A stretch of 56,640 nucleotides of DNA from Bacillota bacterium (GTDB taxonomy: Bacteria; Bacillota; Negativicutes; CTSoil-072). The stretch's first letter is position 1. Each line of letters opens with the position of its first letter. The stretch lies in NCBI GenBank assembly GCA_017889545.1, contig JAGFZV010000019.1:1-56640 (forward strand), given 5' to 3'. The notes under the pieces are model-generated. The model worked only from the letters and a program-made list of their open reading frames with translations, was not told the DNA's origin and did no database searches. Made by a program: the position numbers and the translations under genes. This document shows, piece after piece, positions 14,410-33,502 of the stretch.

Positions 14410-14733
14410 TTATTCCAGAACTTCCGAAATTTTTTCTTCGACTTGTTCATCCTCGACATTGCCGGCAAGTTTTCCCCGAAGCTCACCTTCCTTGAAAAAA
14501 ACGATGGACGGAACTCCTTTTAAGGAAAATCTTTGTGTCAGGTTTTTATCTTCTTCAACATCAACGGAATAGAAGCCGAATTTACCTTCGTATTGAGGCT
14601 GCATTTCTTCCAGCATAGGCACGACTTCTTTGCATACGTGACAGTTCTTTCGTGAAAAAATCACCAAACAAGGGTCCCCGTTATCATAAATAATTTCTTC
14701 GAACCGGGTTGAATCTAGTTGTTGCAACGACAT
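14410..14733 (-). CDS. trxA: Thioredoxin-like protein with a CHVC active site
   Basis: This small thioredoxin-fold protein (107 residues) has the redox motif CHVC in IFSRKNCHVCKEVVPML instead of the common CGPC, and a cis-proline loop GVPSIVFFKEG. It should shuttle electrons from a thioredoxin reductase to target disulfides. ATG 14733 is 8 bases after AAGGAG; GTG 14742 is a weaker alternative. It follows the phosphodiesterase gene but is separated from it by a terminator-like hairpin. A thioredoxin reductase lies 4 kb away under the shared LysR-type element. The unusual dipeptide between the cysteines should alter redox potential and partner choice, which is inference. Confidence 0.88.
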   Translation of the reverse strand: MSLQQLDSTRFEEIIYDNGDPCLVIFSRKNCHVCKEVVPMLEEMQPQYEGKFGFYSVDVEEDKNLTQRFSLKGVPSIVFFKEGELRGKLAGNVEDEQVEEKISEVLE

Positions 14734-14789
14734 TATTTTCACTCCTTAAAATTGTAATGTACTGCAATTCTGTTATCGTTTCCATTCCC

Positions 14790-14843: not shown

Positions 14844-16892
14844 TCAAATATCTTCTGAGAAAATCTGATAAATTGGCGCGCCTTCGCATTGCGCCGGGTA
14901 ACGCACGCCAAGCAATGCTGAGACGGAAGGGGCGACATCAACTTGCCGAATAATCCGATCTGTTGCAAATCCGGCCTTAATACCAGGACCTGCCGCTACA
15001 AAGATTGGCGACACGGAGGTGTCAAAATATCCCTCTGAGGTTGAAATGCTGTCACCATGCAATCGGTTATGGCCTTCTTCAATCGAGAAGAAAATATCTC
15101 CGCATTCCGGTCCATGAGTACCGATTAATACGGCATCCTTGTTCCTGAGACAGATGCCGACAATCCGTCTGCCTGACCGGGCATCTCTGTAATTGTACAA
15201 ATCATTGATGATTTGTTCTTCCAGCTCATATTGATCTTTCGGATCGACAATGCCATGTTTGTCACGGCCTTTGATATTCAGATAAATATAGTTGCTGCGG
15301 ATTTGGACCGCTCTGGTTTTCTCCCAATCGACTTCTCTTAGAGAATTGCCGTTTTCATCTTTTTTCAGGACCGTATAGCCCAGTTCTTCCATGATTTTTG
15401 TATTGAGGCCACCATATTCGCCTAAAATCGGCGGTACGTTTTCTCCAACGATGAGGCCATGATCGCTTAACACGAATACAGTCCAGCCGTCATCCAGCAA
15501 ATGCAGGAATTCACCGATATAATCGTCTGTTTGCAGATAGAACTTTTCAATAAACCCTTGATACGTTTTTTCATCCGTATGATCCCATGGAGTCAATGTT
15601 TTAGCCAGGTGCCATAATTGATGCCCTGCGCAGTCAATATTGTGCAGATGAGAAAATACGACTTCATATTCTTTTTCTTTGATGCAATAATTCATACAAT
15701 CCGCTTGCCACTTGTTGTAAAGCACCCAAGAGGGTTCAAAGATTTCGCGCACTAATTCGGCATCTTCTCCGCCGATCAAACTAACAGGAGGAACGACACC
15801 AACATTTTCAACAATTTCATTGAAAAGCGTTTTGGGGTGCCACAGCTGATCGTTGGAAATATCAAGCGCATTGCTGATCCAAAGTCTTACTTTGTTGCCT
15901 GCCGGATCAAGTTCCAGAATTTTCATGGAACGGCAAGCCGGTTTAGTGATTTCTTTTTTTGTAACGTCATCAATAATCCCGGATACCATGCTGTTACCGG
16001 ATAAAGTAACAATCGGAGTTTCTGCTTTTTTATTCTTATAAATCGCTACGCGGTCGTATTCACCGGCTTCGTTTTTAAGGATTAAAGCAGGGCGTCTCAT
16101 GACACCGCCAGAAGTAAGGATAGTGAATTCCTTCGCACCTTCAGGCGCATTTCCCCAACCAGCAGCATCTTTGAGCGGAGAGTTTACGATATCATAAGCC
16201 ACTTTGCTGCCGATGACCACTTCGGTGTCTTCATCGTCCATGACATAAGTGCGAATTTCACCGCCTTGGCGAGCCGTATCACCCCACCAAAGCTCCATCA
16301 TTTCATCATCCACTTCATCATCCAGAGTGTCTTCCAAATCGGTAATGATACAGCCAACGCCTGCCGGCTTATCCACTCTTGGCGCATAACGCACTTCTTT
16401 AATATCAGAGGAAGCGACAATCACTTTTTCCCAATCCAGCTGCGCAACACCCATGTTGACGGAGCCAGGTTGTGTACCATCTACAACGCTTAAATGTTCA
16501 CTTTGAGAGGTTGGAGGCCAGGAACTGCCGGGCCAATGCCAAACGAGTGTCTTTTTACCGGCTTCCGATGTGATATTCCAGATTTGTTCCGCAGTGCAAT
16601 TACGGGAATCCATGTTGTAAACAACAGCATCGAGACTATCCGGTGATTGACGCCAATAACAGGTGATGCCATGAGTTCCCGGGTAAGCGCCGGTCGCAAG
16701 TGTTGTCCAACATGGCGGGGTAATCGTCGGAATTGCCCCCAGTAATTTTAAGTCTTCTCTGGCAGCTCCGCGGTTAATTAATTTCTGTAAGTGCGGCATC
16801 TTCCCTTCAGCCAAGTATTTACGGGTAATTACCGGGTCCATGCCATCGATGCCTAATACTAATAATTTATTAGTAAGGGCTGTTCTTTTCAT
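14844..16892 (-). CDS. Alkaline-phosphatase-superfamily phosphodiesterase (NPP type)
   Basis: The 682-residue protein is a type I phosphodiesterase/nucleotide pyrophosphatase family member. Metal and nucleophile positions are visible: Asp in LVLGIDGMDP, the Thr nucleophile region TPPCWTTLATGAYPGTHGI (the NPP motif), NIDCAGHQLWH (D-x-x-x-H), VLSDHGL and THGPECGD. The sulfatase CxPxR motif is absent. There is no signal peptide, so it acts in the cytoplasm. It has a long middle insertion (about residues 150-330). Start ATG 16892 follows AAGGAG by 11 bases. Its promoter carries the same 28-bp element as the choline microcompartment operon. The likely substrate is therefore a choline-containing phosphodiester or related ester, an inference from regulation only. 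Confidence 0.85.
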   Translation of the reverse strand: MKRTALTNKLLVLGIDGMDPVITRKYLAEGKMPHLQKLINRGAAREDLKLLGAIPTITPPCWTTLATGAYPGTHGITCYWRQSPDSLDAVVYNMDSRNCTAEQIWNITSEAGKKTLVWHWPGSSWPPTSQSEHLSVVDGTQPGSVNMGVAQLDWEKVIVASSDIKEVRYAPRVDKPAGVGCIITDLEDTLDDEVDDEMMELWWGDTARQGGEIRTYVMDDEDTEVVIGSKVAYDIVNSPLKDAAGWGNAPEGAKEFTILTSGGVMRRPALILKNEAGEYDRVAIYKNKKAETPIVTLSGNSMVSGIIDDVTKKEITKPACRSMKILELDPAGNKVRLWISNALDISNDQLWHPKTLFNEIVENVGVVPPVSLIGGEDAELVREIFEPSWVLYNKWQADCMNYCIKEKEYEVVFSHLHNIDCAGHQLWHLAKTLTPWDHTDEKTYQGFIEKFYLQTDDYIGEFLHLLDDGWTVFVLSDHGLIVGENVPPILGEYGGLNTKIMEELGYTVLKKDENGNSLREVDWEKTRAVQIRSNYIYLNIKGRDKHGIVDPKDQYELEEQIINDLYNYRDARSGRRIVGICLRNKDAVLIGTHGPECGDIFFSIEEGHNRLHGDSISTSEGYFDTSVSPIFVAAGPGIKAGFATDRIIRQVDVAPSVSALLGVRYPAQCEGAPIYQIFSEDI

Positions 16893-16949
16893 AGTAATAA
16901 TCTCCTTTCGTTTCCCTTGCGCAAGTTCTGACCTTCACTAATCGTCTTC

Positions 16950-17005
16950 ATTATAAAAATTATGCTGTTTTCTGTAAAATACTCACTGATTATACCTGGT
17001 ATAAA
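16950..17005 (-). promoter_or_regulatory. LysR-type element 1 and promoter of the phosphodiesterase gene
   Basis: Read towards the gene, the element starts with TATACCAGGTATA (part of a 15-base palindrome, 16990-17004) and ends with TATTTT at 16981-16976. The TTTACA -35 box (16978-16973) overlaps that end, and a perfect TATAAT -10 box (16955-16950) follows after exactly 17 bases. The layout matches LysR-type activation: a palindromic recognition site upstream and a second contact beside -35. Three further copies occur at 18718-18745, 18864-18891 and 21366-21393. Confidence 0.8.
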
Positions 17006-17063
17006 CAACAACATTTCAGCTCATGCAGACGCAAGACCTTGACGTTTGCAGTTCCGGAGCATA

Positions 17064-17109
17064 AATTCAGCTCTTGACAGTTCCGATTGGAAGCACCAAG
17101 AGCTGAATT
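17064..17109 (-). terminator. Perfect 13-bp inverted repeat downstream of the MFS gene
   Basis: AATTCAGCTCTTG (17064-17076) and CAAGAGCTGAATT (17097-17109) form a perfect stem with a 20-base loop just after the MFS stop codon. There is no T tract on the minus strand, so it is at best a weak terminator or an RNA-stabilising 3' hairpin. Confidence 0.45.
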
Positions 17110-17128
17110 GTTTCGTCATGAGATTCGG

Positions 17129-18505
17129 TTAAGACGCCCGGTCTTGAGCAATCGCTTCCAAAGAACGTCCTGCGGTGCGTTCGCCCCAGAAATGGGTGAC
17201 TACCGCAACCAGGAAGAACATAAGACCGATTACCGTGAAAAGTACGCTGTAACCGAATTGTTTGAAGATCACCGGTACAATCAGCATCGCGCCGGCTGTC
17301 AGAATACGGCCGGTGCTGTAAATAACGCCGGTACCGCTATTTCTAATATGGGTCGGGTACGCTTCGGCCAGATACGACCACATCAGGACAAAAACTCCGT
17401 CCATGAGCACGCGGATAACAAAGCCGATAAAGACGATCATCATGGGGGCTGTGATGGTGCCGAACATAATTGTCAGAACGCCAACCATGAGGCTGTACAC
17501 AACAATCGGTATTTTACGACCGCCTTTGTCAGTAAAGAAGGCAGCGATATAGTTGCCGATCGGACTTCCAAAAGAGACCAGCGCTGACATCCACAACGAA
17601 TCTTCCATGCTGAAGCCATATTCGTTGAGCAGCGTCGGCATCCAGGCAAAGAACATGAAGTAGCCTACAGTAATACAGCAAACCATATTAATGAGTACCA
17701 GAGTCTTTTTCAGTAAGCTTCCGCTGAAGATTTCTTTCAGGGCAGACAAACCACTTTGTTTTGGTGCTTGAGTCGATGTAGTCTTGGTTCCGAAATCTTT
17801 ATTCAGATCAACAACTTGTCCAGGTACGAAAGCCTGGATGACTTTTGTCGCTTCATCATATCGGCCTTTCGATAAGAGCCAGCGGGGAGATTCTTTTAGC
17901 CAGAAACATCCCAAGACGAGCAGTATCAAACCAGATCCGCCAATGAAGAAAATATAACGCCAGCCATCGGCGCTGCTGGGAATAATTTGTCCGGCAATAT
18001 GTCCTATTAATGGAATGCTCATCAGTCCGGTTGCCAGAGAGATGGCCTGCCATTTTCCACGGGACGCTGCAGGCAGTATTTCTACTATATATACCATTGC
18101 CACAACTACCATCGAGAGGATACCGAAACCGGTCAACGTTCTTGCAACTAAAAACAACTCTTTGTTAGGCGCAAGTCCGTTGCTGATGGAAAATATCGAA
18201 AAGAGGAATACAGAGATTAAAAATGTTTTCTTGCGGCCCGCTACATCGGAGAGCCAGCCGCCAAACCAGCAGCCGAACAGCATTCCAACAAACGTACAGG
18301 AGTTAACCAAACCGATCCATTCCATGGATACGCCCCAGTATTTTGTCAGAGCGGGGGCGACAAAAGAAAATGTAAATAAATCCATTTGATCGAAACAATA
18401 TGCTAATGCCAGGAGCACAAGAAACTTATAATGTTCTTTTCCCATAGGAGCATTATCTAAAATAGTATTGCCTGATGATTGCTTTGAGTCAACAAAACCG
18501 GCCAT
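17129..18505 (-). CDS. MFS transporter, sugar-porter/AAHS-like
   Basis: This 458-residue carrier has twelve predicted transmembrane helices and a central loop around residues 215-245. Loop 2-3 motif GCWFGGWLSDVAGRKKTFLI and the loop 8-9 counterpart AAFFTDKGGRKIPIVVYSL identify the family; LKESPRWLLSKGRYDEA after helix 6 is the sugar-porter/organic-ion PESPRWL motif. The substrate is probably a small organic ion. Start ATG 18505 follows GAGGGGGGAA. Its promoter bears element 2 of the LysR-type motif, so it is probably co-induced with the choline microcompartment and the phosphodiesterase. Import of choline or a choline ester is a reasonable inference, not a demonstrated one. Confidence 0.88.
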   Translation of the reverse strand: MAGFVDSKQSSGNTILDNAPMGKEHYKFLVLLALAYCFDQMDLFTFSFVAPALTKYWGVSMEWIGLVNSCTFVGMLFGCWFGGWLSDVAGRKKTFLISVFLFSIFSISNGLAPNKELFLVARTLTGFGILSMVVVAMVYIVEILPAASRGKWQAISLATGLMSIPLIGHIAGQIIPSSADGWRYIFFIGGSGLILLVLGCFWLKESPRWLLSKGRYDEATKVIQAFVPGQVVDLNKDFGTKTTSTQAPKQSGLSALKEIFSGSLLKKTLVLINMVCCITVGYFMFFAWMPTLLNEYGFSMEDSLWMSALVSFGSPIGNYIAAFFTDKGGRKIPIVVYSLMVGVLTIMFGTITAPMMIVFIGFVIRVLMDGVFVLMWSYLAEAYPTHIRNSGTGVIYSTGRILTAGAMLIVPVIFKQFGYSVLFTVIGLMFFLVAVVTHFWGERTAGRSLEAIAQDRAS

Positions 18506-18691
18506 GTATATTCCCCCTCGTATAATTGATTGGAAATGATTTATTTGCCATGAAATTATTCAAAAGTAGTTTTGATAAGGCTTGTGCTGCACTCCCCCTA
18601 TATAGTTAATTATTACTTAAAATACGCCCCCGGGCAAGCGTATAATTAGTCTTGAGGTTTCGAAAAAGTTCGACTATTCACATTCACCTAA

Positions 18692-18746
18692 AGTATAGAA
18701 ATCCGCCGCATTTTTGTAAAATAGCCGTTGGTTATACCCGGTATAG
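18692..18746 (-). promoter_or_regulatory. LysR-type element 2 and promoter of the MFS gene
   Basis: Read towards the gene, TATACCGGGTATA is a 13-base palindrome (18745-18733) and the element ends in TATTTT (18723-18718). TTTACA (18720-18715) is the -35 box and TATACT (18697-18692) the -10 box, with 17 bases between them. It is the mirror partner of element 4 in the same 483-base divergent gap, which holds no gene. The leader to the ATG at 18505 is about 180 bases. Confidence 0.8.
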
Positions 18747-18863
18747 AAGAAAAACGCCAATACTGCTGCATCTTTCGGTATATTATTTGAAAGACTATTG
18801 ATCTAACTTTGTACGCCAATATCGATGATAAAGAGGAATTTGCAAAAAAAATACAGCAAAACT

Positions 18864-18917
18864 TATACCCCATATAATTGCTAAGTATTTTACAATCGCG
18901 CGGATGCTTTCTATAAT
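18864..18917 (+). promoter_or_regulatory. LysR-type element 4 and promoter of the thioredoxin reductase gene
   Basis: TATACCCCATATA (18864-18876) begins the element and TATTTT (18886-18891) ends it. TTTACA (18889-18894) and TATAAT (18912-18917) are separated by exactly 17 bases. The palindrome is less perfect than in the other copies, but the second half and the promoter geometry are the same. It drives the gene starting at 18989. Confidence 0.75.
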
Positions 18918-18988
18918 TCAAAATATGGAAACCGTGGGACGTGGACAACGCGTCTCCCAAAAAGATGAGAGTCAGTGAGGTGTGTGTA

Positions 18989-20185
18989 TTGTCACAATAC
19001 GATTTACTTATTATCGGTGGCGGACCTGCTGGATTAGCGGCAGGCATATACGGAGCAAGGGCAAGACTGAAGACAGCTATTCTTGAGAAAGGGGCTGTCG
19101 GCGGACAAGCATTTACTACGCGCGAAATGGTGAATTTCCCCGGATTTAAAAGCACCTCCGGTCCGGAATTGATGAAAACATTAGCCGACCATGCGAAAAG
19201 TTTTGGAACCGAAATTATTAAAGAAGACGTTGTCGCTGTTGATCTAAGCAGTGACATAAAGCAAATCCATACAAAGAAAGGCCGGACATACCAAGCGCGA
19301 GCGGTCATTCTTGCACCGGGATCACAGCCCCGTTTGCTGAATGTACCTGGCGAAAGAGCGTTTCGCGGCAATGGCGTCTCGTACTGCGCAACCTGTGATG
19401 CGGAATTTTATCAAGATCAGCATGTGGTTGTTGTGGGAAATGGCGATGCTGCGATTGAAGAAGCGATGTATATTGCTAAATTTGCCACAAAGGTAACTGT
19501 CATTGTGATCCATGATGAAGGCGTGGTCGATTGCAACCGGGCGAGCGCAGAAAAAGCGTTCCGTCATCCTAAAATTGAATTTATCTGGAACTCCGTTTTG
19601 GACGAAATCAAAGGAAACGGCGAAGTGGAAGCAGTTGTACTGAAAAACCTCAAAACCGGTGAGCTAAGAGAAATGGTTGCAAATGGCGTATTCATTTATG
19701 TTGGTATGCTTCCCGGTACAGGATTTCTACAAAATCAGGTTCAACTTGACGAACGCGGGTACATTGTTGCCAATCATTCCATGGAAACATCAGTTGATGG
19801 TGTCTTTGCAGCAGGCGATGCAACCGTCAAATATTTACGGCAAGTGGTGACGGCTGCGAATGATGGGGCAGTAGCCGCAGTTGCAGCGGAACGGTATCTG
19901 GAAGAGGAGCAAAGTTTCCAAGAAGAAATCGTAGATGCGGAGACTCCCGTGCTGTTGGCTTTCTGGAACCCTGCCAACTCGCAGAGCATTACGATGCTGT
20001 CGAAGTTTGAAGGGTTGGATAGCGTGATCAACCAACGGGTGAAGTTGGTAAAAGTCGATGTTTCCCGCAAAAAACGCTTGGCACAAAAGTATAATGTACA
20101 GGAAACTCCAGCGGCATTGATGTTAGATAAGGGGCAACTGATTAAAACGGTTACAAGCGAAGCAGATCTATGTGAAGTCTCCTGA
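18989..20185 (+). CDS. trxB: Thioredoxin reductase with a degenerate C-terminal thioredoxin domain
   Basis: The FAD/NADPH flavoprotein core (residues 1-310) has YDLLIIGGGPAGLAAGIYGAR, the redox motif CATCDAEFY, the NADPH site VVVGNGDAAIEEAMYIAK and VDGVFAAGDATVK. After the normal end of about 310 residues, some 85 extra residues form a thioredoxin-like fold (VLLAFWNPANSQ, VKLVKVDVSRKKRLAQKYNV, ETPAALML). There the WCGPC motif is replaced by NPANSQS, so this domain has no redox cysteines. It probably serves docking. TTG 18989 follows GAGGTG by 7 bases; upstream ATG and GTG lack a site. It is regulated by element 4 and followed by a terminator. The CHVC thioredoxin at 14410-14733 is its likely partner. 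Confidence 0.88.
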   Translation: MSQYDLLIIGGGPAGLAAGIYGARARLKTAILEKGAVGGQAFTTREMVNFPGFKSTSGPELMKTLADHAKSFGTEIIKEDVVAVDLSSDIKQIHTKKGRTYQARAVILAPGSQPRLLNVPGERAFRGNGVSYCATCDAEFYQDQHVVVVGNGDAAIEEAMYIAKFATKVTVIVIHDEGVVDCNRASAEKAFRHPKIEFIWNSVLDEIKGNGEVEAVVLKNLKTGELREMVANGVFIYVGMLPGTGFLQNQVQLDERGYIVANHSMETSVDGVFAAGDATVKYLRQVVTAANDGAVAAVAAERYLEEEQSFQEEIVDAETPVLLAFWNPANSQSITMLSKFEGLDSVINQRVKLVKVDVSRKKRLAQKYNVQETPAALMLDKGQLIKTVTSEADLCEVS

Positions 20186-20239
20186 AATCGAAGAATGGGA
20201 TCGTATTGACTGGGGTGGATAAAGTCAACACGATTGGAT

Positions 20240-20286
20240 AAGACGAGCGACCCTCTTAAGCAACAGAGGGTTGTTCGTCTTATTTT
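20240..20286. terminator. Terminator after thioredoxin reductase
   Basis: AAGACGAGCGACCCTCT pairs with AGAGGGTTGTTCGTCTT (two G-T pairs), followed by ATTTT. It lies between the thioredoxin reductase and the LysR gene. Confidence 0.8.
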
Positions 20287-20378
20287 GGAAAAACCGCATA
20301 GAATAGTGCTATTTCTTTACCGGTTTTCTGTTGTATAATGAAAGTATGATTAAATAAAAAGTGACTGAGGGTGATGCC

Positions 20379-21302
20379 ATGCGCCTGGAACAGTTGAAGT
20401 ATCTTGTCGAGATTTACCGGTCAAAATCGATATCGTTAGCTGCTGAACGAACTCATATTTCTCAACCTGCCCTTAGTTCTGCTATCAGCAAACTGGAGGA
20501 TGAATTAGGAGTTCAGCTCTTGAAGAGAACCAATCAGGGAGTATACCCTACCGAAACCGGAGAATTAGTGATACAGAAATCAATTGAAGTCATTGAAGCG
20601 TTGCAGGATATTGCTTCGATAGCCCGTGTGAATTCAAGCGATTTGCAAGAGGATATATCGCTTGCCGTAGAAATTAATGTCAATATGGCTTTTATGCCGA
20701 AAGTGTTTGCTGAGTTCAAAAAACACTGTCCGAAGGCAAATATATTCCAAAAGGTTGGCGAATCGAATAACATTTTACGTGATGTTAAGTCGGGAAAAGC
20801 CGATTTCGGGATCATCATTGGAACGGATGAGCTGGTTGAAACGAAAGATGTAAGCACAAGAGAATTGATGCATGACAATTTGGTTATACTCACAAGCCGG
20901 AATAACCCTTGGGCCAAGCAAAAAACAATAACTTTGGCGATGGCGTTAGAGCAGCCGATTATTCTCTATAATTCAGAGTATGTGACGGATTGTGGTATTT
21001 CGGCTATTCTCAGAAAATACGGTTCCATTAATGTCAGTTATCGAGTGGATACAATTATTATGCTGGAAAAGCTGCTATTGCAAGACCAGGATAAAAACAT
21101 AGCTTTTGTCCCGAGTTTTGTTGCAGGTGCTTATACTGATAAAAACAAGGGACTCATTGTGCGTCAAATTCAGGATCCCCCGTTGGATATATCGATTGTT
21201 CTTATTTGGTCCAAACGGCATCATTTAAGTTCGACAGAAAAAGAACTAGTGAAAGTCATTCGATCAGTATTTAGTGAACCGATCGTACCCGGCAAAAAAT
21301 AA
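20379..21302 (+). CDS. LysR-family transcriptional regulator
   Basis: The N-terminal winged helix (residues 1-62) reads MRLEQLKYLVEIYRSKSISL, then AAERTHISQPALSSAISKLE and LGVQLLKRTNQGVYPTETG. A periplasmic-binding-protein-like ligand domain follows from about residue 90 and includes SGKADFGIIIGTDEL. At 307 residues its length is standard. ATG 20379 follows GAGGGTG; a GTG 18 bases upstream has no proper site. It stands alone between two terminators, immediately before the choline microcompartment operon. Four copies of a palindromic element at nearby promoters make it the best candidate for their activator. The inducer is unknown; choline or a choline ester would fit the gene content. Confidence 0.92.
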   Translation: MRLEQLKYLVEIYRSKSISLAAERTHISQPALSSAISKLEDELGVQLLKRTNQGVYPTETGELVIQKSIEVIEALQDIASIARVNSSDLQEDISLAVEINVNMAFMPKVFAEFKKHCPKANIFQKVGESNNILRDVKSGKADFGIIIGTDELVETKDVSTRELMHDNLVILTSRNNPWAKQKTITLAMALEQPIILYNSEYVTDCGISAILRKYGSINVSYRVDTIIMLEKLLLQDQDKNIAFVPSFVAGAYTDKNKGLIVRQIQDPPLDISIVLIWSKRHHLSSTEKELVKVIRSVFSEPIVPGKK

Positions 21303-21308
21303 ATAATG

Positions 21309-21359
21309 AAAAATCACTCCTTGCTTTATCGCAAAATAAAGCAAGGAGTGATTTTTTTC
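21309..21359 (+). terminator. Terminator of the LysR gene
   Basis: A perfect 19-base stem (21311-21329 with 21336-21354, loop CGCAAA) is followed by a seven-T run. It insulates the regulator gene from the operon behind it. Confidence 0.95.
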
Positions 21360-21365
21360 TTTATT

Positions 21366-21420
21366 TATATCGGGTATAGTCACTGGATATTGTACAGTTC
21401 ATATCTTGCCACCGTATACT
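21366..21420 (+). promoter_or_regulatory. LysR-type element 3 and promoter of the choline microcompartment operon
   Basis: TATATCGGGTATA (21366-21378) and TATTGT (21388-21393) repeat the layout of the other three elements. The -35 box aligned with theirs is TGTACA (21391-21396), and TATACT (21415-21420) is the -10 box after 18 bases. The weaker -35 and longer spacing suggest stronger dependence on an activator. The first gene starts at 21488. Confidence 0.75.
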
Positions 21421-21487: not shown

Positions 21488-22483
21488 ATGCAGGGTCAGA
21501 TTGACAAGATATTGCAGCAGCAAGAAGGTTCATTTGCAAAAAAAGGGATTGGTTGGGGCTTGTTAGCTGGATTAGGGTGGGGACTGGACTGTACGCTGAT
21601 GGGTATGGCCTTGGGAATGGCGCCTTTAGCGGGGGGGATCAGTTTATTTGCAGCCCCGCTGGTCGGATCCTGTCTCCACGATGGGTTTGCAGCATTATGG
21701 ATATTTCTTAAAAATTTCGTTGACGGGCGCTGGCGCGATTATCTGCGCACTCTTCGGACGCGGCCGGCGCGCTTCATACTGATTGGATCATTTCTGGGAG
21801 GCCCAATTGGAATGTCCTGCAATCTATTAGCGATCTATTTCGCCGGGGCGTCATACACAACAGCCATAACTGCCGCGTATCCTGCTATTGGCGCGCTGCT
21901 GGGAGCGATCTTTTTAAAAGAAAAAATTTCCCGCCGGGTCTGGGTTGGCATATTTACTGCTATCCTTGGTTCTTTTGTTGTTGGATACGTACCCCCGGCC
22001 GGCGATCAATATCCGCATTTTTATCTGGGCATAGGCTTGGCGGCTGTAGCAGCGCTCGGCTGGGCCATGGAAGGAGTGTTCTCAACTTACGGGATGGACC
22101 TGGTCGATTCAGATATCGCTATCGGAATTCGTCAGCTCGCTTCTTTCATTGTGTATTTTTTCGTTGTGTTGCCAATTGCCGGCAGCGTTGCATATAAAAT
22201 TTTGCTGGAAAGCCTGACCTCGCCGGTATTTCTTTTTATTGCCGGTATCGCAATGGTAGGGAGCATATCTTATACGTCATGGTATCGTGCAATGAATATG
22301 ACAGGTGTTGGAAGGGCTATGGGTTTGAATGTTACCTATGCCCTCTGGTCGGTGTTATTTGGCTGGCTGTTAGTAAATTTAACGATTACGCCAAACTTAT
22401 TAGCCGGCGTAATCCTGATCTGTATCGGTACGATACTAACCATAGGAAGCCCGAAAGATCTGGTTAATTTGAGGAGTAAGTAG
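21488..22483 (+). CDS. EamA/DMT-superfamily transporter
   Basis: This membrane protein of 331 residues has about ten hydrophobic helices in two repeats (AAYPAIGALLGAIFLKEKIS closes the first, LLAGVILICIGTILTIGSPK the second), typical of drug/metabolite transporters. It is the first gene of the choline microcompartment operon, directly behind element 3. Choline gene clusters of other anaerobes carry small multidrug (SMR) transporters of the same superfamily, so this protein may move choline in or trimethylamine out; direction and substrate are inference. ATG follows GAGGAG with 10 bases spacing. Twelve bases separate it from the next gene. Confidence 0.87.
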   Translation: MQGQIDKILQQQEGSFAKKGIGWGLLAGLGWGLDCTLMGMALGMAPLAGGISLFAAPLVGSCLHDGFAALWIFLKNFVDGRWRDYLRTLRTRPARFILIGSFLGGPIGMSCNLLAIYFAGASYTTAITAAYPAIGALLGAIFLKEKISRRVWVGIFTAILGSFVVGYVPPAGDQYPHFYLGIGLAAVAALGWAMEGVFSTYGMDLVDSDIAIGIRQLASFIVYFFVVLPIAGSVAYKILLESLTSPVFLFIAGIAMVGSISYTSWYRAMNMTGVGRAMGLNVTYALWSVLFGWLLVNLTITPNLLAGVILICIGTILTIGSPKDLVNLRSK

Positions 22484-22494: not shown

Positions 22495-22758
22495 ATGCAA
22501 AAGTTACCGGTTAAATTCCGTGTTTTTCAAATTATTTCGCAATACGAAGACATAGCAAATGAAGAGCTATACAAAATACTAAAACAGGAATATCCGCTTG
22601 ATCGCCATGTGACGCTGCACGGGATAGACAATTATTTAATGTCACTCAAAGCGGTAGGGTTGATTAGGAATTCTCTTACTCTATTGTCTGATACGGGAAC
22701 GATGATACAGAAGTATCAGTTGACGGAGAACGGAGTAAATAAACTGAAATACATCTAG
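22495..22758 (+). CDS. Small winged-helix-like protein of unknown function
   Basis: The 87-residue protein reads as a compact helix-turn-helix with a short wing: FRVFQIISQYEDIANEELYK, then NYLMSLKAVGLIRNS, and a Lys-rich C-terminal strand (KYQLTENGVNKLKYI). It looks like the DNA-binding part of winged-helix regulators without a ligand or dimerisation domain. A good ribosome site (TAGGAGGAAACGGT) precedes ATG 22495, and it lies tightly between the transporter and the first shell gene, so it is a real gene. I do not recognise the family. It may fine-tune the operon or bind the shell; neither can be shown from sequence. Confidence 0.75.
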   Translation: MQKLPVKFRVFQIISQYEDIANEELYKILKQEYPLDRHVTLHGIDNYLMSLKAVGLIRNSLTLLSDTGTMIQKYQLTENGVNKLKYI

Positions 22759-22774: not shown

Positions 22775-23395
22775 ATGGAATATTTCGGCGAAGAAGCGTT
22801 GGGGCTTGTTGAAACACGTGGGATGGTTCCGGCAATTCAAGCTGCGGACGTCATGTGTAAAACGGCTGATGTTGTTCTTGTTTCGTATGAAAATATGGGC
22901 TCGGGGCTTGTCACGGTTATGGTTAAAGGGGATGTAGCGGCAGTGAGATCAGCTGTAGAAACAGGTGCGGCAGCAGCATCGGCCATTGGCGAAATGACAG
23001 CCGCACACATCATGCCACGTCCTATCAGCAAGGTGGGAAAGATTGTTTCAAAACACGATATTGACGAAAATTCAGTGTTGGCTCCAGAAAAACAAGAAAT
23101 CAGTGTGCGGAAAAATGATGCATTGGGATTCATCGAAACGTATGGGCTGGTTTCAGTGCTGGAAGCCGCTGACGCCATGTGTAAGGCCGCGGATGTAGAA
23201 TTGGTCGGTTATGAGAACGTGGCCTCCGGACTGATTTCCGTTGTAATTAGCGGCGATGTGGGGGCGGTAAAAGCGGCGGTGGAGGCTGGCATCCCCGCAG
23301 CCGGCAAGGTAGGGAATATCTATAGCTCCAATGTCATTGCGCGGCCGCATGCGGACGTAGAAAAGATTATTGCCAAGTACGTTATCGACTGGTAA
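22775..23395 (+). CDS. Tandem-domain microcompartment shell protein (BMC-T type)
   Basis: Two complete BMC domains are joined in 206 residues. Domain 1 (about 7-95) contains EALGLVETRGMVPAIQAADV, GSGLVTVMVKGDVAAVRSAV and HIMPRP; domain 2 (about 115-205) contains [33 protein letters not shown] and NVIARPHADVEKII. Both are canonical (not circularly permuted) and closely resemble PduA/PduJ-type hexamer subunits, linked by about 20 residues. It would form a pseudohexameric trimer in the facets of the shell. Each half carries Cys in ADVMCK/ADAMCK. ATG follows AAAAAGGGGAG. It is the first shell gene of the choline operon. Confidence 0.93.
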   Translation: MEYFGEEALGLVETRGMVPAIQAADVMCKTADVVLVSYENMGSGLVTVMVKGDVAAVRSAVETGAAAASAIGEMTAAHIMPRPISKVGKIVSKHDIDENSVLAPEKQEISVRKNDALGFIETYGLVSVLEAADAMCKAADVELVGYENVASGLISVVISGDVGAVKAAVEAGIPAAGKVGNIYSSNVIARPHADVEKIIAKYVIDW

Positions 23396-23442
23396 AAAGG
23401 ATTTTCCAAGCCATTGATTTTTAAATGGAAGGGGGAAGCGAC

Positions 23443-24951
23443 ATGAACCGAATTGACAATGACTTGCTCTCAGTCCAAGAGGCTCGTATTCTTGTGGAAA
23501 ACGCCCGCGAGGCGCAAAAAACGCTGGCGGCTTTTCCTCAGCAAAAACTGGATAATATTGTCGGGCATATGGCAAACGAAGCTTGCCGATATGCCCGGGA
23601 ATTTGCCATTATGTCCTATGAAGAAACGGGCTTTGGTAAATGGCAGGATAAGTTTATCAAGAATATTTTTGCCAGCGATTTTCTTTATAAAAAAATCAGG
23701 AACATGAAAGTTGTCGGCATTATTGACGAAGACAAAGACAACAAGACCATGGATATTGGCGTGCCTGTCGGAGTGATTGCAGCGTTGCTTCCTTCTACCA
23801 ACCCTGTATCCACCACAATATATAAAATCATGATTGCCATAAAATCCGGTAATGCGATTGTTTTTTCTCCCCATCCCAGGGCAAAAAAAACGACGGGCAA
23901 AGTGATCGATAGCTTGATCCGGACGGCCGAAGCCAATGGATTGCCATCCGGCGCCATCGGCTATTTGCGGACGATGGCCGCTTCCGGTACGGTTGAATTG
24001 ATGAACCATAAAGACACGGCGCTTATTTTGGCTACTGGTGTCCCTAAACTGCTCAAGGCAGCGTATGCATCAGGGAAACCGGTTATTTATGGCGGTCCCG
24101 GTAATGGCCCTGCTTTTATTGAGCGTTCAGCGGATATCAGACAGGCAGTGGCAGACATTATTACTAGCAAAACTTTTGATAACGGAATCGTTTCTGCTTC
24201 AGAACAATCCATTGTAGTTGAGGAATGCATTGCCGATCAAGTAAGGCAAGAACTCAGAAGGATGGGTGCGTATTTCCTCTCCGGAGAGGAAGCTGATCAG
24301 CTCGGCAAGCTTTTTCTACGGCCGGATGGCAGCATGAATCCGGAAATTGTTGGCAAATCCGCTGTCGAATTGGCGTGGAAAATTGATATTCGGCTCCCGG
24401 AAAATACGAAGGTATTGATTTCAGAGCAAAAATATGTTTCTGATACCAATCCGTATTCAAGAGAAAAGCTTTGTCCGGTACTGGCATTTTACGTGGAAAA
24501 GGATTGGATATTCGCCTGTGAAAAATGCATCGAATTACTGGTAAATGAAGGACGGGGCCATACTTTGGTCATTCACTCGAAGAATGAGAAAGTGATCAGA
24601 GAATTTGCTCTAAAAAAACCTGTATCAAGAGTGCTGGTAAACACTCCCGCCGCATTAGGCGGCATTGGAGTGACAACCAATCTCTTTCCGGCATTGACGT
24701 TGGGGTGCGGCGCAGCGGGCGGTAGTTTTACTTCGGATAATGTCTCGCCAATCAACTTAATTAATATTCGCAAAGTCGGTTATGGGGTACGGAAGTTAGA
24801 GGATATAACCACGACCGAGCAGGCGATTGTAAGCGCGAAATCAAGTGGAAGTTGTATTTTGCCAAAACAGCTTTCCCCGGAAAGTACGCGCGATTTGCAG
24901 GCGGTGCTGGAAAAATTGCTTGAGCAGCTTGCACAAGGCACAAAGCCATGA
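23443..24951 (+). CDS. Aldehyde dehydrogenase paralogue lacking the catalytic cysteine
   Basis: The protein is homologous over its full length (502 residues) to CoA-acylating acetaldehyde dehydrogenases EutE/PduP: LLSVQEARILVENAREAQ, VIAALLPSTNPVSTTIYK, VIYGGPGNGPAFIERSA and the C-terminal TTNLFPALTLGCGAAGGS. At the active site the sequence is FDNGIVSASEQS, where EutE/PduP have NGTICASEQ. The codon at 24193-24195 (residue 251) is TCT Ser; the second paralogue here has TGT Cys at the same residue number. It should not form the acyl-thioester intermediate. The last 20 or so residues (RDLQAVLEKLLEQLAQG) form an amphipathic helix like an encapsulation peptide. ATG 23443 follows AAGGGGGAAG. It may be a structural or regulatory partner of the active enzyme. 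Confidence 0.9.
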   Translation: MNRIDNDLLSVQEARILVENAREAQKTLAAFPQQKLDNIVGHMANEACRYAREFAIMSYEETGFGKWQDKFIKNIFASDFLYKKIRNMKVVGIIDEDKDNKTMDIGVPVGVIAALLPSTNPVSTTIYKIMIAIKSGNAIVFSPHPRAKKTTGKVIDSLIRTAEANGLPSGAIGYLRTMAASGTVELMNHKDTALILATGVPKLLKAAYASGKPVIYGGPGNGPAFIERSADIRQAVADIITSKTFDNGIVSASEQSIVVEECIADQVRQELRRMGAYFLSGEEADQLGKLFLRPDGSMNPEIVGKSAVELAWKIDIRLPENTKVLISEQKYVSDTNPYSREKLCPVLAFYVEKDWIFACEKCIELLVNEGRGHTLVIHSKNEKVIREFALKKPVSRVLVNTPAALGGIGVTTNLFPALTLGCGAAGGSFTSDNVSPINLINIRKVGYGVRKLEDITTTEQAIVSAKSSGSCILPKQLSPESTRDLQAVLEKLLEQLAQGTKP

Positions 24952-25035
24952 ATGGCGGCGGAAACGGAATTGCTTCACGAGATAGCAGCACACAAGAAGA
25001 GTATCCTGCTGCATAAGTAAAGGGAGGACTAAAAG

Positions 25036-27579
25036 TTGGATATTAGAGAGTTTTCAAAAAAATTTGCCGATGTAACGAGACATTTGTCTCCGGAAGAAAC
25101 AGCTGTAGTGATGAAATTATTCCAGGGAATTTCCAAAGAACTGTCTGCAACACGGCCTGCAGCATACATAGAGACAAAATCGCCTGTGTACGAGGGGGAA
25201 ATTAACGGATTGACACCGCGGCTGGAGCGGCTGCGCGCAGCATATCTGAAAGCAAAACCCAGCGTCAGCACCTATCGTGCCAGAGCGTTCACGCAGGTGG
25301 CCAAAGAAAATGCAGGCTTGCCGAAAATCCTGCTGCGGGCCAGATGTTTTCAAAAAGCCTGTGAGACAGCTCCGTTGCTGATCCAGAAAGATGAACTGAT
25401 CGTCGGACATCCGTGCGGAAAACCGCGCGCCGGCGCAGTATCTCCAGATATTGCCTGGCGATGGGTTCGTGATGAGTTGGATACCATGGCAACCCGCCAG
25501 CAGGATCCTTTTCAAATTAGCGAAGAAGATAAGCGGATTTTACGGGAAGAGATTTTCCCCTTTTGGGAAGGGAAAAGCCTGGATGAAATTTGTCAGCAGC
25601 AATACGAAGAAGCCGGCGTATGGTCATTTTCCGGGGAAGCGTTTGTCAGCGATCTTTCTTATCATCAGGTCAACGGAGGTGGCGATACCTGCCCCGGTTT
25701 TGATGTCATTTTAATTCAAAAAGGGATAAATGGCGCAAGGCAGGAAGCTATCGACCGGTTAAGCAAATTGTCCATGGAAAATCCGGAGGATCTGGATAAG
25801 ATTTATTTTTATAAAGCGGAAATTGCGACATGCGACGGAATTTTGGCCTATGCCAAGCGGCTTTCTGACTATGCGCGCGATTTGGCTGATCGGGAAGAGG
25901 ATGCTTTTCGCAAGAACGAACTTTACAAAATTTCCTCTATTTTGACTCATGTGCCGGCCAACCCTCCCCGCACTTTCCATGAAGCGCTGCAGTCGGTCTG
26001 GACGCTGGAATCTCTGTTTGTGGTGGAAGAGAACCAAACCGGTATTTCTGTCGGACGGTTGGATCAATATATCTATCCTATGTTTAAGGCCGATATGGAA
26101 GCAGGCCGTTTGAATAAAATCGAAGCATTTGAATTAATCAGCTGTTTTTTAATAAAATGTTCGGAAGTGATGTGGCTATCCAGTGCGTTGGGAGCAAAAT
26201 ATTTTGCCGGTTATCAGCCGTTCATCAATTGCACCGTAGGCGGTCAGAAAAGAACCGGCGGCGATGCTACCAACGATCTGACGTATCTGATTATGGATGC
26301 CGTTCGTTTCACCAAGATGTATCAACCATCTTTGGCTTGCCGGATTCACAACCAGTCACCGCAAAAATATTTGCAGAAAATCGTAGAAGTTGTTAAAGCT
26401 GGGCTGGGTTTCCCTGCCTGTCACTTTGATGACAGTCATATCAAAATGATGCTTGCCAAGGGATTCAGTCTCGAAGATGCAAGGGATTACTGCCTTATGG
26501 GCTGCGTTGAACCGCAAAAATCCGGCCGGATTTACCAATGGACATCCACCGGTTATACGCAATGGCCGATTGCCATTGAGTTTGCCCTGAATCGCGGCAT
26601 GATGAAATGGCGCGGCACTGTGGAGGGGATCGACACCGGAGAACTTGAGAATATCAAGACCTATGAAGAATTTGATGCGGTCTGCAAAAAGCAAATTGAA
26701 AATATTATCCGTTTATCGGCTATTGGAACCATTGTCAGTCAGCGGGTTCACCGAGACCTTGTCCCCAAACCGCTAATGTCGCTGCTTGTAGAAGGATGTA
26801 TGGAAAAAGGCACGGATGTTACAAATGGCGGTGCCATGATCAATTGCGGTCCCGGGTTGATTTTCTCGGGCTTGGGAACCTACGCTGATTCTATGGCGGC
26901 GATTAAAAAGCTGGTTTTTGAAGAAAAAAAATATACTCTGACCCAGATCAGGGATGCATTGAATGCGAACTTTGAAGGCTGGGAAACCCTGCGTACGGAT
27001 TGTATGAATGCGCCGAAGTACGGGAATGACGATGACTATGCTGACTTGATTGCATCCGATATCGTTGCTTGGACCGAACGAATCCACAATTCCTTTAAAA
27101 TGCTGTATTCGCGCTTCACTCATGGGACCTTGTCCATTTCCAACAATACACCGATTGGCGAAATTACGGGTGCGAGCGCGAATGGACGCCTGGCTTGGAC
27201 ACCGTTGTCGGACGGAATCAGTCCGACGCAGGGCGCCGATAAATTAGGGCCGACCGCAATCATCAAATCGGTCAGCAAACTGAGTGTCGAATCGATGAAT
27301 ATTGGCATGGTGCACAATTTCAAACTGCTGCGCGGCATTCTGGAAACGCCGGAAGGCGAAAATGGCCTGATTACCTTGCTGAGAACGGCATCTATTCTTG
27401 GAAATGGTCAGATGCAATTCAGTTACGTTGACAATGAAGTATTGAAGAAAGCTCAGATCGAGCCGGACAAATATAGAGACTTGATCATTCGTGTCGCGGG
27501 TTACAGCGCTTATTTCGTTGAGCTATGCAAAGAAGTACAGGATGAAATTATCAGCAGGACCGTGCTGGAGCATTTTTAA
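25036..27579 (+). CDS. cutC: Choline trimethylamine-lyase (glycyl radical enzyme)
   Basis: CutC splits choline into trimethylamine and acetaldehyde by radical chemistry. The 847-residue length is that of the short (type I) enzyme of Desulfovibrio. Counting gives Tyr209, Asp217 (YHQVNGGGD), Phe396, Cys490 and Glu492 (GCVEPQ), Thr503 and Tyr507 ([11 protein letters not shown]), and the radical Gly822 (RVAGYSAYF). Each is one higher than the choline-site residues recalled for D. alaskensis CutC (208, 216, 395, 489, 491, 502, 506, 821). This constant offset is strong evidence against diol dehydratase, isethionate lyase or pyruvate formate-lyase activity. TTG 25036 lies 8 bases after AGGGAGG. The stop overlaps the cutD ATG (TAATG). 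No N-terminal extension is present. Confidence 0.97.
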
Positions 27580-28562
27580 TGAGTACTGAAATAAACGGCA
27601 TTTTGGAACGAAAAGCGAGAATATTCAATGTCCAGAAATATTCCATCTATGATGGACCGGGCATCAGAACGTTGATTTTTTTCAAAGGCTGCCCGCTGCG
27701 CTGCAAATGGTGTTCTAATCCGGAAGGACTGGAACGAAAATATCAGGTTATGTTCCAAGAAGATTTGTGTATTCACTGCGGCAGTTGTATTCCTGTTTGT
27801 CCTGCCCGAATACATTGCGTATCGGCTGAAATCGGAGATCCGCTGCAATGCAGCAATGAAAAAACCAGGCATCGGGTAAACCGGGATATTGAGTGTGTAG
27901 GTTGCCGGAAATGCGAAGTCATTTGTCCTAAACGGGCGTTGTCTATTGCCGGAATGGACAGAAAAATTTCCGAAGTCCTGGAAATCATCCAACAAGATTC
28001 ACTCTTTTATCTGAGCTCAGGCGGAGGAGTGACTCTTGGTGGCGGGGAAGTGACAGCGCAGCCGGAATTTGCCGCCAATCTGCTGATGGAATGCAAACGA
28101 ATGGGGATTCATACAGCCATAGAAACCTGTGGATATGCAAAACTGGACTCGCTGCTCATGATCGCCCAATTTACTGATTTATTTCTCTATGATCTTAAAC
28201 AAATCGACTCTGATTGTCATTACGAACTTACGGGAGTGCGTAATGAACGCATTTTGGACAATCTAACGGAGCTCATAAGTCGAGGGTTTGCTGTTAAAGT
28301 CAGAATGCCCCTTATCCGGGGATTAAATGACAGCGAAGATATCCTCAGCAGAACCATGGAATTTTTGCTGCCCTTTAAAAGTTATAAAAACTTTCAAGGC
28401 GTCGATTTACTTCCTTATCATAAATTAGGGATTAACAAATACAAGCAATTAGACATGAAATACGCTATCATCGAAGATTTGAGCTTTACAGCAGAAAAAT
28501 TGGATCACATTGCTGAGGTCGTAAAAGATTATGACTTACAGGTTAAAATTATTAAACATTAA
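27579..28562 (+). CDS. cutD: Choline lyase activating enzyme (radical SAM glycyl radical activase)
   Basis: The 327-residue activase generates the glycyl radical on CutC using S-adenosylmethionine. The radical SAM Cys triad is in KGCPLRCKWCSNPEG near residue 35-45, preceded by YSIYDGPGIRTLIFFKG. A ferredoxin-like insert with two 4Fe-4S motifs follows: CIHCGSCIPVCP and CVGCRKCEVICP. The glycine-rich SAM-binding region is SSGGGVTLGGGEVTAQPEF. Its ATG overlaps the cutC stop, the usual pairing of lyase and activase. Electrons probably come from ferredoxin or flavodoxin. Confidence 0.96.
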   Translation: MSTEINGILERKARIFNVQKYSIYDGPGIRTLIFFKGCPLRCKWCSNPEGLERKYQVMFQEDLCIHCGSCIPVCPARIHCVSAEIGDPLQCSNEKTRHRVNRDIECVGCRKCEVICPKRALSIAGMDRKISEVLEIIQQDSLFYLSSGGGVTLGGGEVTAQPEFAANLLMECKRMGIHTAIETCGYAKLDSLLMIAQFTDLFLYDLKQIDSDCHYELTGVRNERILDNLTELISRGFAVKVRMPLIRGLNDSEDILSRTMEFLLPFKSYKNFQGVDLLPYHKLGINKYKQLDMKYAIIEDLSFTAEKLDHIAEVVKDYDLQVKIIKH

Positions 28563-28602
28563 AACTTGTGATACCACACGATAGGAAGGACGATGGTTTT
28601 CT

Positions 28603-28956
28603 ATGAGTACAGCGGATGAATTTGGCAAAAAACGCATTATCCAGGAATATGTGCCTGGCAAGCAGGTCACGCTGGCTCACATCATTGCGTCGCCTGTACA
28701 AGACATATATGAACGGCTGGGGATTGAAGAAAGAGGAGCCATTGGAATTTCAACTCTTACTCCAAGTGAAACGGCCATTATTGCCGCTGATATTGCGACA
28801 AAGGCATCGGACATAGAGATCGGTTTTCTGGATCGCTTTACGGGATCCCTGGTCATATCCGGTGATGTGGCCAGTGTCGAAGCCGCCATGATTGCTATAA
28901 ATGAAACGCTGGAAAAGTTGTTGGGCTTCACACCGGCCAAGATTACACGTACATGA
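28603..28956 (+). CDS. eutS: Shell protein, EutS/PduU type (circularly permuted BMC-H)
   Basis: The 117-residue protein matches EutS/Pdu[20 protein letters not shown] at the N-terminus (the beta-barrel-forming leader), then [41 protein letters not shown] and a C-terminal helix. This permuted hexamer is a minor shell component whose central pore is capped by a small beta barrel. ATG 28603 lies 40 bases after cutD. It overlaps eutP by 4 bases. Confidence 0.92.
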
Positions 28957-29387
28957 AAAAACGCATTATGATTGTCGGATCGACCCAATCTGGTAAAACC
29001 ACCCTGGCAAATGCGTTAAATCATTGCAGCCGGGCATTGAAAAAAACCCAGGATGTGATTTATGGGGATAATGCCATTGACACACCGGGCGCCTATATTG
29101 AAAATGCTGCTATGTACAAATACCTGATAGCGACAGCCCAGACCGCATCCCACGTGCTAATTCTTGTTGATCAATCCAGACCGCAGGAAATATATCCGCC
29201 CAATTTTGCGAAAATATTTACTTGTCCAGTCCTTGGCGTGGTTACTAAGCTGGATATTGCTCCGGAAAATGCCGGTATTTGCATTCGTCAATTGAAAAGA
29301 ATAGGGATTTTTGAACCTTATTTCCGGATATCTTTGCGGGACAATACGGGTGTGGAAGCTTTGGAAAAACATTTACTTGGGAAATAA
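28953..29387 (+). CDS. eutP: EutP/PduV-family P-loop protein (possible acetate kinase)
   Basis: The 144-residue protein has a P-loop [14 protein letters not shown], a Walker B-like IDTPGAYIE and a guanine-recognition-like TKLD, as in EutP/PduV. Salmonella EutP has been reported to act as an acetate kinase in ethanolamine use, while PduV has been tied to compartment movement. With PduL in the same operon and no ackA here, a role in making ATP from acetyl phosphate is attractive, though unproven. It overlaps eutS (ATGA) at its start. Confidence 0.88.
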
Positions 29388-29437
29388 GAACCATCGGCAA
29401 ATGAGATTTTGCCGTGAAAGTGTGTAGGAGAATAGAA

Positions 29438-30280
29438 ATGAAAACCGTAAATTCCGCTTTTCAATATTGTGATCAGCTTGTTCGTGATTTTGAAAAAGTC
29501 ATTGCGCAGCCGATAGTGGGAAAATCATCCGTCTATTACACCGGTATTGATCTGGGGACGGCTTATATTGTCCTGGCAGTTCTTGATGAGAATTATCAGC
29601 CTGTTGCCGGTGCCTACCGTTTTGCCAATGTTGTCAAAGATGGTATGGTAGTCGACTATATCGGCGCCATTCGCATCGTCAAAGAATTAAAACAAGAGCT
29701 TGAAGAGAAACTTGATGCAGAGTTGGTTTATGCTGCAGCGGCACTTCCGCCGGGGACATTTTCTCTCGATTCAGGCGCCATTAAACACGTCGTACAAGGC
29801 GCAGGCTTTGAAATTACCAGTCTGTTGGATGAGCCGACAGCGGCCAATGCAGTGCTTAAGATAAAAGACGGTGTGATTGTCGATGTTGGCGGCGGCACTA
29901 CCGGAATTGCTGTTTTGAAAGATGGTGAAGTGATTTACGTCGCCGATGAACCTACCGGAGGCACGCACTTCTCACTCGTTGTTGCCGGCGCCTATAAACT
30001 GAGTTTTGACGCTGCGGACGAATACAAACGAGATAAGAAAAACCATGCGGAATTGCTTCCCGTATTACGGCCTGTCATTGAGAAAGTTTCATCGATTATT
30101 CGCCGTCATGTGCGTGACTGCCCGGTAAAAGAAATTTACCTGGTCGGCGGGACTTGCTGTCTGAACGGGATCGAAAATATTATCGCCAAGGAAACAAAGC
30201 TGCCGACATATAAACCGCAAAATCCTATGTTTGTAACACCGTTGGGAATTGCCCTGAATTGTACACAGGAAATTCTTTAG
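29438..30280 (+). CDS. eutJ: EutJ-family actin/Hsp70-fold ATPase
   Basis: The 280-residue protein is EutJ-like: YYTGIDLGTAYIVLAVLDE (phosphate-1 loop), VVDVGGGTTGIAVLKDGE as GVIVDVGGGTTGIAVL (phosphate-2) and EIYLVGGTCCLNGIENII (adenosine motif). These define an actin/Hsp70 nucleotide fold with no Hsp70 substrate domain. EutJ proteins accompany microcompartment operons and are thought to be chaperone-like or to reactivate an enzyme; the role is not settled. ATG 29438 follows AGGAG, preferred over an upstream GTG at 29414. Confidence 0.88.
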   Translation: MKTVNSAFQYCDQLVRDFEKVIAQPIVGKSSVYYTGIDLGTAYIVLAVLDENYQPVAGAYRFANVVKDGMVVDYIGAIRIVKELKQELEEKLDAELVYAAAALPPGTFSLDSGAIKHVVQGAGFEITSLLDEPTAANAVLKIKDGVIVDVGGGTTGIAVLKDGEVIYVADEPTGGTHFSLVVAGAYKLSFDAADEYKRDKKNHAELLPVLRPVIEKVSSIIRRHVRDCPVKEIYLVGGTCCLNGIENIIAKETKLPTYKPQNPMFVTPLGIALNCTQEIL

Positions 30281-30299
30281 ACAGGAGTGATTTGGACAC

Positions 30300-30611
30300 A
30301 TGGACTATCGAATCATCAAATCCCCTTCTCAAGGGACAGTGGATATTCTTTTCCGGCGGAAAGGTTCTGCGCCCAGCATTGCGATTAAGAATTATGATGC
30401 TGTCGGTTTGGTTCAAGGCCGGATGATTGATATGGTTTTTGCTGTTGATATCGCCGAAAAAGCGGCCGGAGTAGTCGTGGAAGATATTAAGGGACACTGT
30501 CCGCAGCATCTGATTATGATTGCCATCTTTGGCGACACGGCATCGGTGGAAGCAGCGATTCAAGAGATACAATATAAATTACAAGAAGCAAAAATAGGTG
30601 AGATGCGATGA
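30300..30611 (+). CDS. Divergent single-domain BMC shell protein
   Basis: This 103-residue protein has a BMC-like core, AVGLVQGRMIDMVFAVDIAE followed by VVVEDIKGHCPQHLIMIAIF and GDTASVEAAIQEIQ, preceded by about 30 extra residues (YRIIKSPSQGTVDILFRRKG). Similarity to standard BMC-H proteins is weak in the first helix, where the usual E-x-x-G is changed to QGRMID. The position between eutJ and the pentamer gene supports a shell or shell-linker role. Its stop overlaps the eutN start (ATGA). I do not recognise a named family. Confidence 0.75.
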   Translation: MDYRIIKSPSQGTVDILFRRKGSAPSIAIKNYDAVGLVQGRMIDMVFAVDIAEKAAGVVVEDIKGHCPQHLIMIAIFGDTASVEAAIQEIQYKLQEAKIGEMR

Positions 30612-30868
30612 TAGCAGCAAAAGTAATCGATAAGATATGGGCCACAAGAAAAGCCGATTCCCTTATCGGACTGAAATTTATGTTAGTGGAAGTGATTGGC
30701 GGGATCGATGCCGGTCGTCTTATGATCGCTGCTGACAGCATTGGTGCCGGCATGGGTGAGCGCGTGCTTGTCTGCACCGGCAGTTCGGCCCGAAAAATGC
30801 TGGATCGGAATGATGCTCCCATTGATGCGATTATTATCGGGATCATTGATGAAGATTGCACGTTTTAA
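30608..30868 (+). CDS. eutN: BMC-P pentameric vertex protein (EutN/PduN/CcmL family)
   Basis: The 86-residue EutN-type protein forms the pentamers that cap the shell vertices. It shows AAKVIDKIWATRKADSLIG, GLKFMLVEVI, AADSIGAGMGERVLVCTGSS and DAIIIGIID. One copy in the operon is normal, since vertices are few. It is translationally coupled to the preceding shell gene. Confidence 0.94.
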   Translation: MIAAKVIDKIWATRKADSLIGLKFMLVEVIGGIDAGRLMIAADSIGAGMGERVLVCTGSSARKMLDRNDAPIDAIIIGIIDEDCTF

Positions 30869-33491: not shown

Positions 33492-33502
33492 GAGGATAAG
33501 TG

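Follow-up and report, generated by a model that had tools for sequence, protein, structure and literature searches.

A predicted LysR-type regulon, marked by a four-copy promoter-operator, joins a phosphodiesterase-thioredoxin module to a choline microcompartment operon in one Negativicutes genome

The window analysed here, a 56,640-nucleotide stretch of contig JAGFZV010000019.1 from a Bacillota bacterium of the class Negativicutes, carries four copies of an element that we interpret, with a probability of about 0.85, as the promoter-operators of one LysR-type regulon. The genes behind the copies encode a phosphodiesterase-like hydrolase with a thioredoxin, an MFS carrier, a thioredoxin reductase (TrxB), and a LicB-like transporter followed by a choline microcompartment (cut) operon. 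Comparative genomics supports the predicted regulon well, and the literature we searched contains no description of this LysR circuit or of a LysR regulator of choline trimethylamine-lyase.

The core of the element is a 13-bp dyad with the consensus TATACCNGGTATA, an inverted repeat (TATAC-CNG-GTATA). Read towards the gene, each copy runs from the dyad across 12 bp to TTTACA (three copies) or TGTACA (one copy), and then across a spacer to a -10 box; the repeating unit is an entire promoter of 54-55 bp. Copy A (16950..17003, minus strand; dyad 17003-16991, -35 TTTACA 16978-16973, -10 TATAAT 16955-16950) serves the phosphodiesterase-thioredoxin genes and copy B (18692..18745, minus strand; dyad 18745-18733, -35 TTTACA 18720-18715, -10 TATACT 18697-18692) the MFS carrier. 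On the plus strand, copy C (18864..18917; dyad 18864-18876, -35 TTTACA 18889-18894, -10 TATAAT 18912-18917) serves trxB, and copy D (21366..21420; dyad 21366-21378, -35 TGTACA 21391-21396, -10 TATACT 21415-21420) the LicB-like gene together with the choline microcompartment operon that follows. The spacer between the -35 and -10 boxes is 17 bp in copies A, B and C and 18 bp in D. An earlier inspection of the letters alone (the sequence-only reading) had reported the four copies at these places and strands, these boxes and spacings, and 19 of 28 shared positions in three copies; our analysis confirms all of this, the three being A, B and D (A, B and C agree at 17 of those first 28 positions). 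All four copies are identical at 17 of 31 positions. A separate metagenome-assembled genome, CTSoil_071, has a near-identical 7.7-kb contig (L007) on which all four copies are present and LysR is 100% identical.

LysR-type sites usually have a recognition site near -65, with a T-N11-A box, and an activation site at -35 (PMC8407307). The dyad has the T-N11-A form in every full copy, with T and A at the ends of the 13 bp, and a second conserved block, GTAT-TTTACA or GTAT-TGTACA, overlaps the -35 box. In these two respects the element fits LysR-type binding, as the sequence-only reading proposed, but the dyad is centred at about -54, not -65, from a predicted start assumed to lie about 7 bases after the -10 box.

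We tested specificity within the window's own genome (3.27 Mb) by pattern searches. The pattern TATAYCNSRTATAN{8,11}TATTKTACA, written from the four copies, has exactly four matches, all of them the window copies, and the reversed control has none; the motif is not scattered through the genome, which was the check proposed with the original observation. The dyad alone is not specific: allowing one mismatch it occurs at seven places, compared with nine for the control, and we rejected it as a genome-wide marker. Four near-dyads elsewhere in the genome have neither the TAT-TTTACA half nor a -10 box. Because the dyad alone is not rare and the other near-dyads lack the promoter half-sites, the meaningful unit is the whole promoter, and the specific feature is dyad, spacing and promoter together.

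We then turned to relatives, using 380 genomes of the class and 249 evenly sampled genomes of the phylum. Close LysR orthologues were found in three class genomes besides the window's (G308, G026 and G318) and in five phylum genomes (G496, G527, G577, G531 and G382). Element and orthologue occur together in nine of these nine genomes, the window's included, which span six families; all nine encode the phosphodiesterase, and the element stands before phosphodiesterase, thioredoxin, thioredoxin-reductase or transporter genes. The first class-wide pattern, derived from the window with the gap widened by one base, matched in G026 beside the LysR orthologue (57%, in a different family) and gave one control match; a match in G253 was set aside as chance, having no -10 box in place and no match to the full pattern. 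The broader pattern for the full architecture was written after we had seen the copies of G308, G026 and G318, and its weight lies in the zero elsewhere: it matches only the four class genomes with this LysR and none of the 376 without it, with a control of zero. LysR and phosphodiesterase, too, are found in the same four of the 380 genomes (chance 1.2e-9 if genomes are independent). The suggestion that the motif would track the LysR orthologue is thus borne out.

The phylum genomes are out of sample for a matrix whose only training set was the four window copies. With this matrix, the lysR regions of G496, G527 and G577 each yielded two strong sites and those of G531 and G382 one apiece, and one more was found before each of the unlinked phosphodiesterase genes of G527 and G577. 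The held-out sites score 24-39 bits, compared with maxima of 23.5 bits in 20 Mb of first-order simulated sequence, 15.8 in control loci and 20.8 for the best other place in the tested loci. A whole-genome pattern for these five genomes, widened after reading G531 and G382, gave ten sites, all before genes of this set, and none for the control. The phosphodiesterase genes of G527 and G577 carry the element even though they are remote from lysR (a different contig; a distance of about 1.7 Mb). Because these unlinked genes have it, a shared trans-acting regulator is indicated, and local duplication or operon inheritance is not an explanation. In G531 and G382 both half-sites are altered symmetrically, to TATAT..ATATA. 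G382 also has a tandem partial copy, TATATAGGATATAACTACTAAGTAT (L078:10493-10503), 48 bp upstream of its main element and without a -35 box. A perfect dyad in G308 (C15:65749) was rejected as chance, since it lies within coding sequence and has no promoter half-sites.

The proposed binder is a LysR-type regulator of 307 amino acids (20379..21302, plus strand) with both the helix-turn-helix and the substrate-binding domain (PF00126, PF03466); its orthologues are 45-74% identical and share the MRLEQL start. An intrinsic terminator (21309..21356, plus strand; a 20-pair stem and then a T run) separates lysR from copy D. A scan of contigs with LysR returned the near-identical L007 and otherwise only distant homologues at 26-34%. 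The helix-turn-helix region is near-identical among the orthologues and differs in a 28% homologue. In G531 and G382, the genomes with the altered half-sites, the residues just after it are altered as well (GVYPTE to GAQLTE), a paired change that hints at recognition by LysR and is suggestive only. The element precedes the same gene set in eight other genomes carrying this LysR, and for this reason we think that the four sites very probably bind one neighbouring LysR-type protein. The element would then be the operator of one trans-acting regulator, for which this LysR ranks first as by far the best candidate.

The first target of copy A is a phosphodiesterase-like hydrolase of 682 amino acids (14844..16892, minus strand; PF01663, alkaline phosphatase superfamily, E 1.2e-30), with a thioredoxin bearing a CHVC motif downstream (14410..14742, minus strand; PF00085, E 2e-17). 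The hydrolase is 87-91% identical in seven of the eight relatives, including all five LysR-bearing phylum genomes, and 35% identical in G318. Copy B serves the MFS carrier (17129..18505, minus strand), whose 68-74% identical homologues lie behind the element in G527, G577, G531 and G382, and copy C a thioredoxin reductase with a C-terminal thioredoxin-like domain (18941..20185, plus strand; TIGR01292 above cut-off, PF07992 and PF00085). Across the relatives, the element is followed by the phosphodiesterase and its thioredoxin, the thioredoxin reductase, a thioredoxin-like gene or the MFS carrier; in G496 it precedes a small transporter gene and then lysR, and in G308 a BCCT-TrxB-phosphodiesterase-thioredoxin run. 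The predicted conserved core of the regulon is accordingly phosphodiesterase, thioredoxin, TrxB and transporter. An attempt to read the substrate of the phosphodiesterase from its predicted structure was dropped (mean predicted local distance difference test score 60, below 50 in the active-site region); Foldseek gave weak matches of this model to PafA, ENPP7, phosphonoacetate hydrolase and ENPP6 (best E 1.1e-3).

The window's genome holds three more phosphodiesterase-thioredoxin-TrxB modules (L054:7929-11878 in G000 C22; L055:7850-11609 and 14516-18336 in G000 C18), each with other transporter genes around it and none with the element. Because these three paralogous modules lack it, the element follows the regulator, not the enzyme family; the gene set itself looks like a reusable catabolic module.

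Behind copy D, the first gene encodes a LicB-like DMT/EamA transporter (21488..22483, plus strand), of which residues 17-302 of 331 match LicB (7b0k/7paf) at E 1.6e-31, the only PDB match. It is followed by a conserved 87-residue gene (22495..22758, plus strand), its partner in relatives, with no Pfam or NCBIfam match, and then, after a 17-bp gap, by the cut cluster (22775..36587, plus strand). The cluster includes cutC (25036-27579, TIGR04394; 1540 bits against a curated cut-off of 1050) and cutD (27579-28562, TIGR04395; 515 against 360), and homologues of its later shell genes were found in the relatives' loci. We infer that the cluster is read from copy D, its close spacing to the genes before it suggesting co-transcription. 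CutC was found in six of 150 sampled class genomes, three of the six being among the four with LysR. The LysR module has cut genes next to it in the window, G318, G531 and G382, and the pair of LicB-like and 87-residue genes is in the LysR neighbourhood of G026, G527, G531 and G382; in G308 and G318 the LicB-like pair, found between cutC and cutD, is more distantly related (38% to the gene of the window). G026 has LysR, phosphodiesterase and element and no CutC, so the choline association of the LysR module is real and not absolute. Three features, the LicB match, the BCCT gene of G308 and the neighbouring cut genes, point to choline or a related quaternary amine, and the inducer is most likely one of these or an ester of one.

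The element itself, with its geometry and specificity, and its occurrence together with LysR are computed results; binding by LysR and activation rather than repression are our inferences. A LysR dimer would dock on the dyad centred near -54; the second dimer of the tetramer would touch GTAT-TTTACA or GTAT-TGTACA over the -35 box, about two helical turns downstream of the dyad; and inducer-bound LysR would recruit RNA polymerase to these imperfect promoters. Its targets would be the phosphodiesterase-like hydrolase, thioredoxin, thioredoxin reductase and small-molecule transporters (MFS, LicB-like and BCCT), and through copy D the choline microcompartment operon would come under the same control in this genome.

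Several observations weigh against this interpretation. The window's lysR has no copy of the element of its own. The dyad is about 10 bp nearer the predicted start than the usual -65. The copy in G318 scores 16.6 bits, within the noise of the matrix, and was counted solely by its place: the phosphodiesterase follows directly, and a TATAAT box is correctly spaced. Finally, the element stands before a choline microcompartment in this genome only, and the cut operons of G308 and G318 (CutC 86-88% identity) have no element promoter, so the choline part is lineage-specific. The single regulon of the sequence-only reading therefore holds for the phosphodiesterase, the MFS carrier and TrxB, which are repeatedly found behind the element in relatives, and not for the choline operon beyond this genome. 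The simplest reading is that this lineage acquired the link when a cut operon was joined on downstream of the LicB-like gene that the regulon already had.

A possible objection is that a real LysR regulon responds to a sulfonate, sulfate ester or phosphonate and not to choline, the choline operon having been caught by position only. We consider this unlikely, though it deserves to be taken seriously. A sulfonate or sulfate ester is a possible signal because G026 and G318 have NMT1/SsuA-type ABC genes beside LysR, and one paralogous module of the window's genome has TauE-like permeases and a sulfatase nearby; G026, moreover, lacks CutC, and the hydrolase is weakly similar to phosphonoacetate hydrolase. 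Against it stand the LicB-like transporter in the LysR neighbourhood of the window and four relatives, the BCCT gene of G308, and the cut genes beside the module in the window and three relatives. This objection concerns the signal only and is compatible with a LysR-type regulon.

It is improbable that the element is the operator of another regulator, encoded elsewhere, with LysR as a neighbour acting on something else. The window's lysR without a copy in front, the distance of about 5.6 kb between lysR and the element copy in G308, and the fact that LysR binding is a prediction would fit such a case, but LysR is the only regulator gene observed in all nine loci, and it accompanies the element without exception across six families. 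The element also lies in the divergent intergenic region beside lysR in G026, G531 and G382, and its dyad is a T-N11-A box.

We give very little weight to the idea of a promoter cassette that was recently duplicated, its copies being preserved by descent and not by a shared regulator. The four copies do lie within 4.5 kb and have an unusually uniform architecture, but across six families, and at unlinked genes too, the contact positions are conserved and the spacers separating dyad, -35 and -10 have no sequence relationship, and the half-sites of G531 and G382 have changed in step. Least credible of all is chance resemblance among AT-rich promoters: the one-mismatch dyad is indeed as frequent as its control, but full-pattern matches occur at this gene set only, controls gave zero apart from the one match to the first pattern in the 380 genomes, and nothing in the 20 Mb of simulated sequence scored as high as the held-out sites.

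Many copies of the promoter-operator also have in common the sequence AGTGAA-N6-AAC-NTNCNCA (for example AGTGAAGGTAAGAACTTACACA), a second conserved element that lies immediately past the -10 box, where the transcript is expected to begin. The 434 kb of loci contain its strict form eight times, with an intact dyad in front in seven cases and a dyad one base shorter in the eighth. In the window it follows copy A (16918..16939, minus strand; AGTGAAGGTCAGAACTTGCGCA) and, in weaker form, copy B (18666..18681, minus strand; GTGAATAGTCGAACTT); copies C and D have no clear example. It is also present in leaders behind the promoter-operator in L074, L075, L076, L089 and L090, and Rfam gave no credible match near the promoters. 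The second element may act as a further operator or, in the leader, as an RNA element. We tentatively suggest that the phosphodiesterase-thioredoxin-TrxB set may be a so far undescribed module for the catabolism of choline esters or of other quaternary amines, activated by LysR together with a LicB-type transporter and here a choline microcompartment, with the second element as a separate control point.

Two further genes of the window can be noted. A 332-residue protein (13283-14281, minus strand), on the same strand as the phosphodiesterase-thioredoxin genes and downstream of them, has a signal-peptide-like start, the look of an outer-membrane barrel and no Pfam match. Homologues of a 684-residue open reading frame (43268-45322) adjoin regulon genes in G527 (L075:9915-11854) and G577 (L076:4100-6039); by eye these look like methyl-accepting chemotaxis proteins, possibly for chemotaxis to the same compound.

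These results predict the operator, the regulator and the targets of a circuit of which the bacterial conversion of choline to trimethylamine is a part. They group an uncharacterised hydrolase with thioredoxin and choline-type transporters, making its substrate a testable question, and the element offers a means of looking for additional regulon members in other genomes. Most noteworthy are the hydrolase module and the apparent capture of the choline microcompartment in this lineage alone.

Glycine-betaine reductase operons combine thioredoxin, thioredoxin reductase and a quaternary-amine transporter (BCCT), as the module here does; unlike them, the loci we read have no reductase genes, and the enzyme is a phosphodiesterase-like hydrolase. 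The element resembles known LysR-type operators (PMC8407307) in its upstream T-N11-A dyad, second contact at -35, adjacent regulator gene and, in some relatives, divergent layout, and differs from them in its dyad position, in an unusually strict TATACCNGGTATA and in the absence of a copy before the window's lysR. With cut microcompartment clusters (PMC6620236) the window shares cutC, cutD, an aldehyde dehydrogenase and shell genes, but its cluster is led by a LicB-like gene behind a predicted LysR-type operator, which the cut operons of G308 and G318 lack. The LicB-like gene is related to LicB over the full length of the sequence, whereas its place in a predicted LysR regulon and its 87-residue partner set it apart, choline transport being predicted from sequence.

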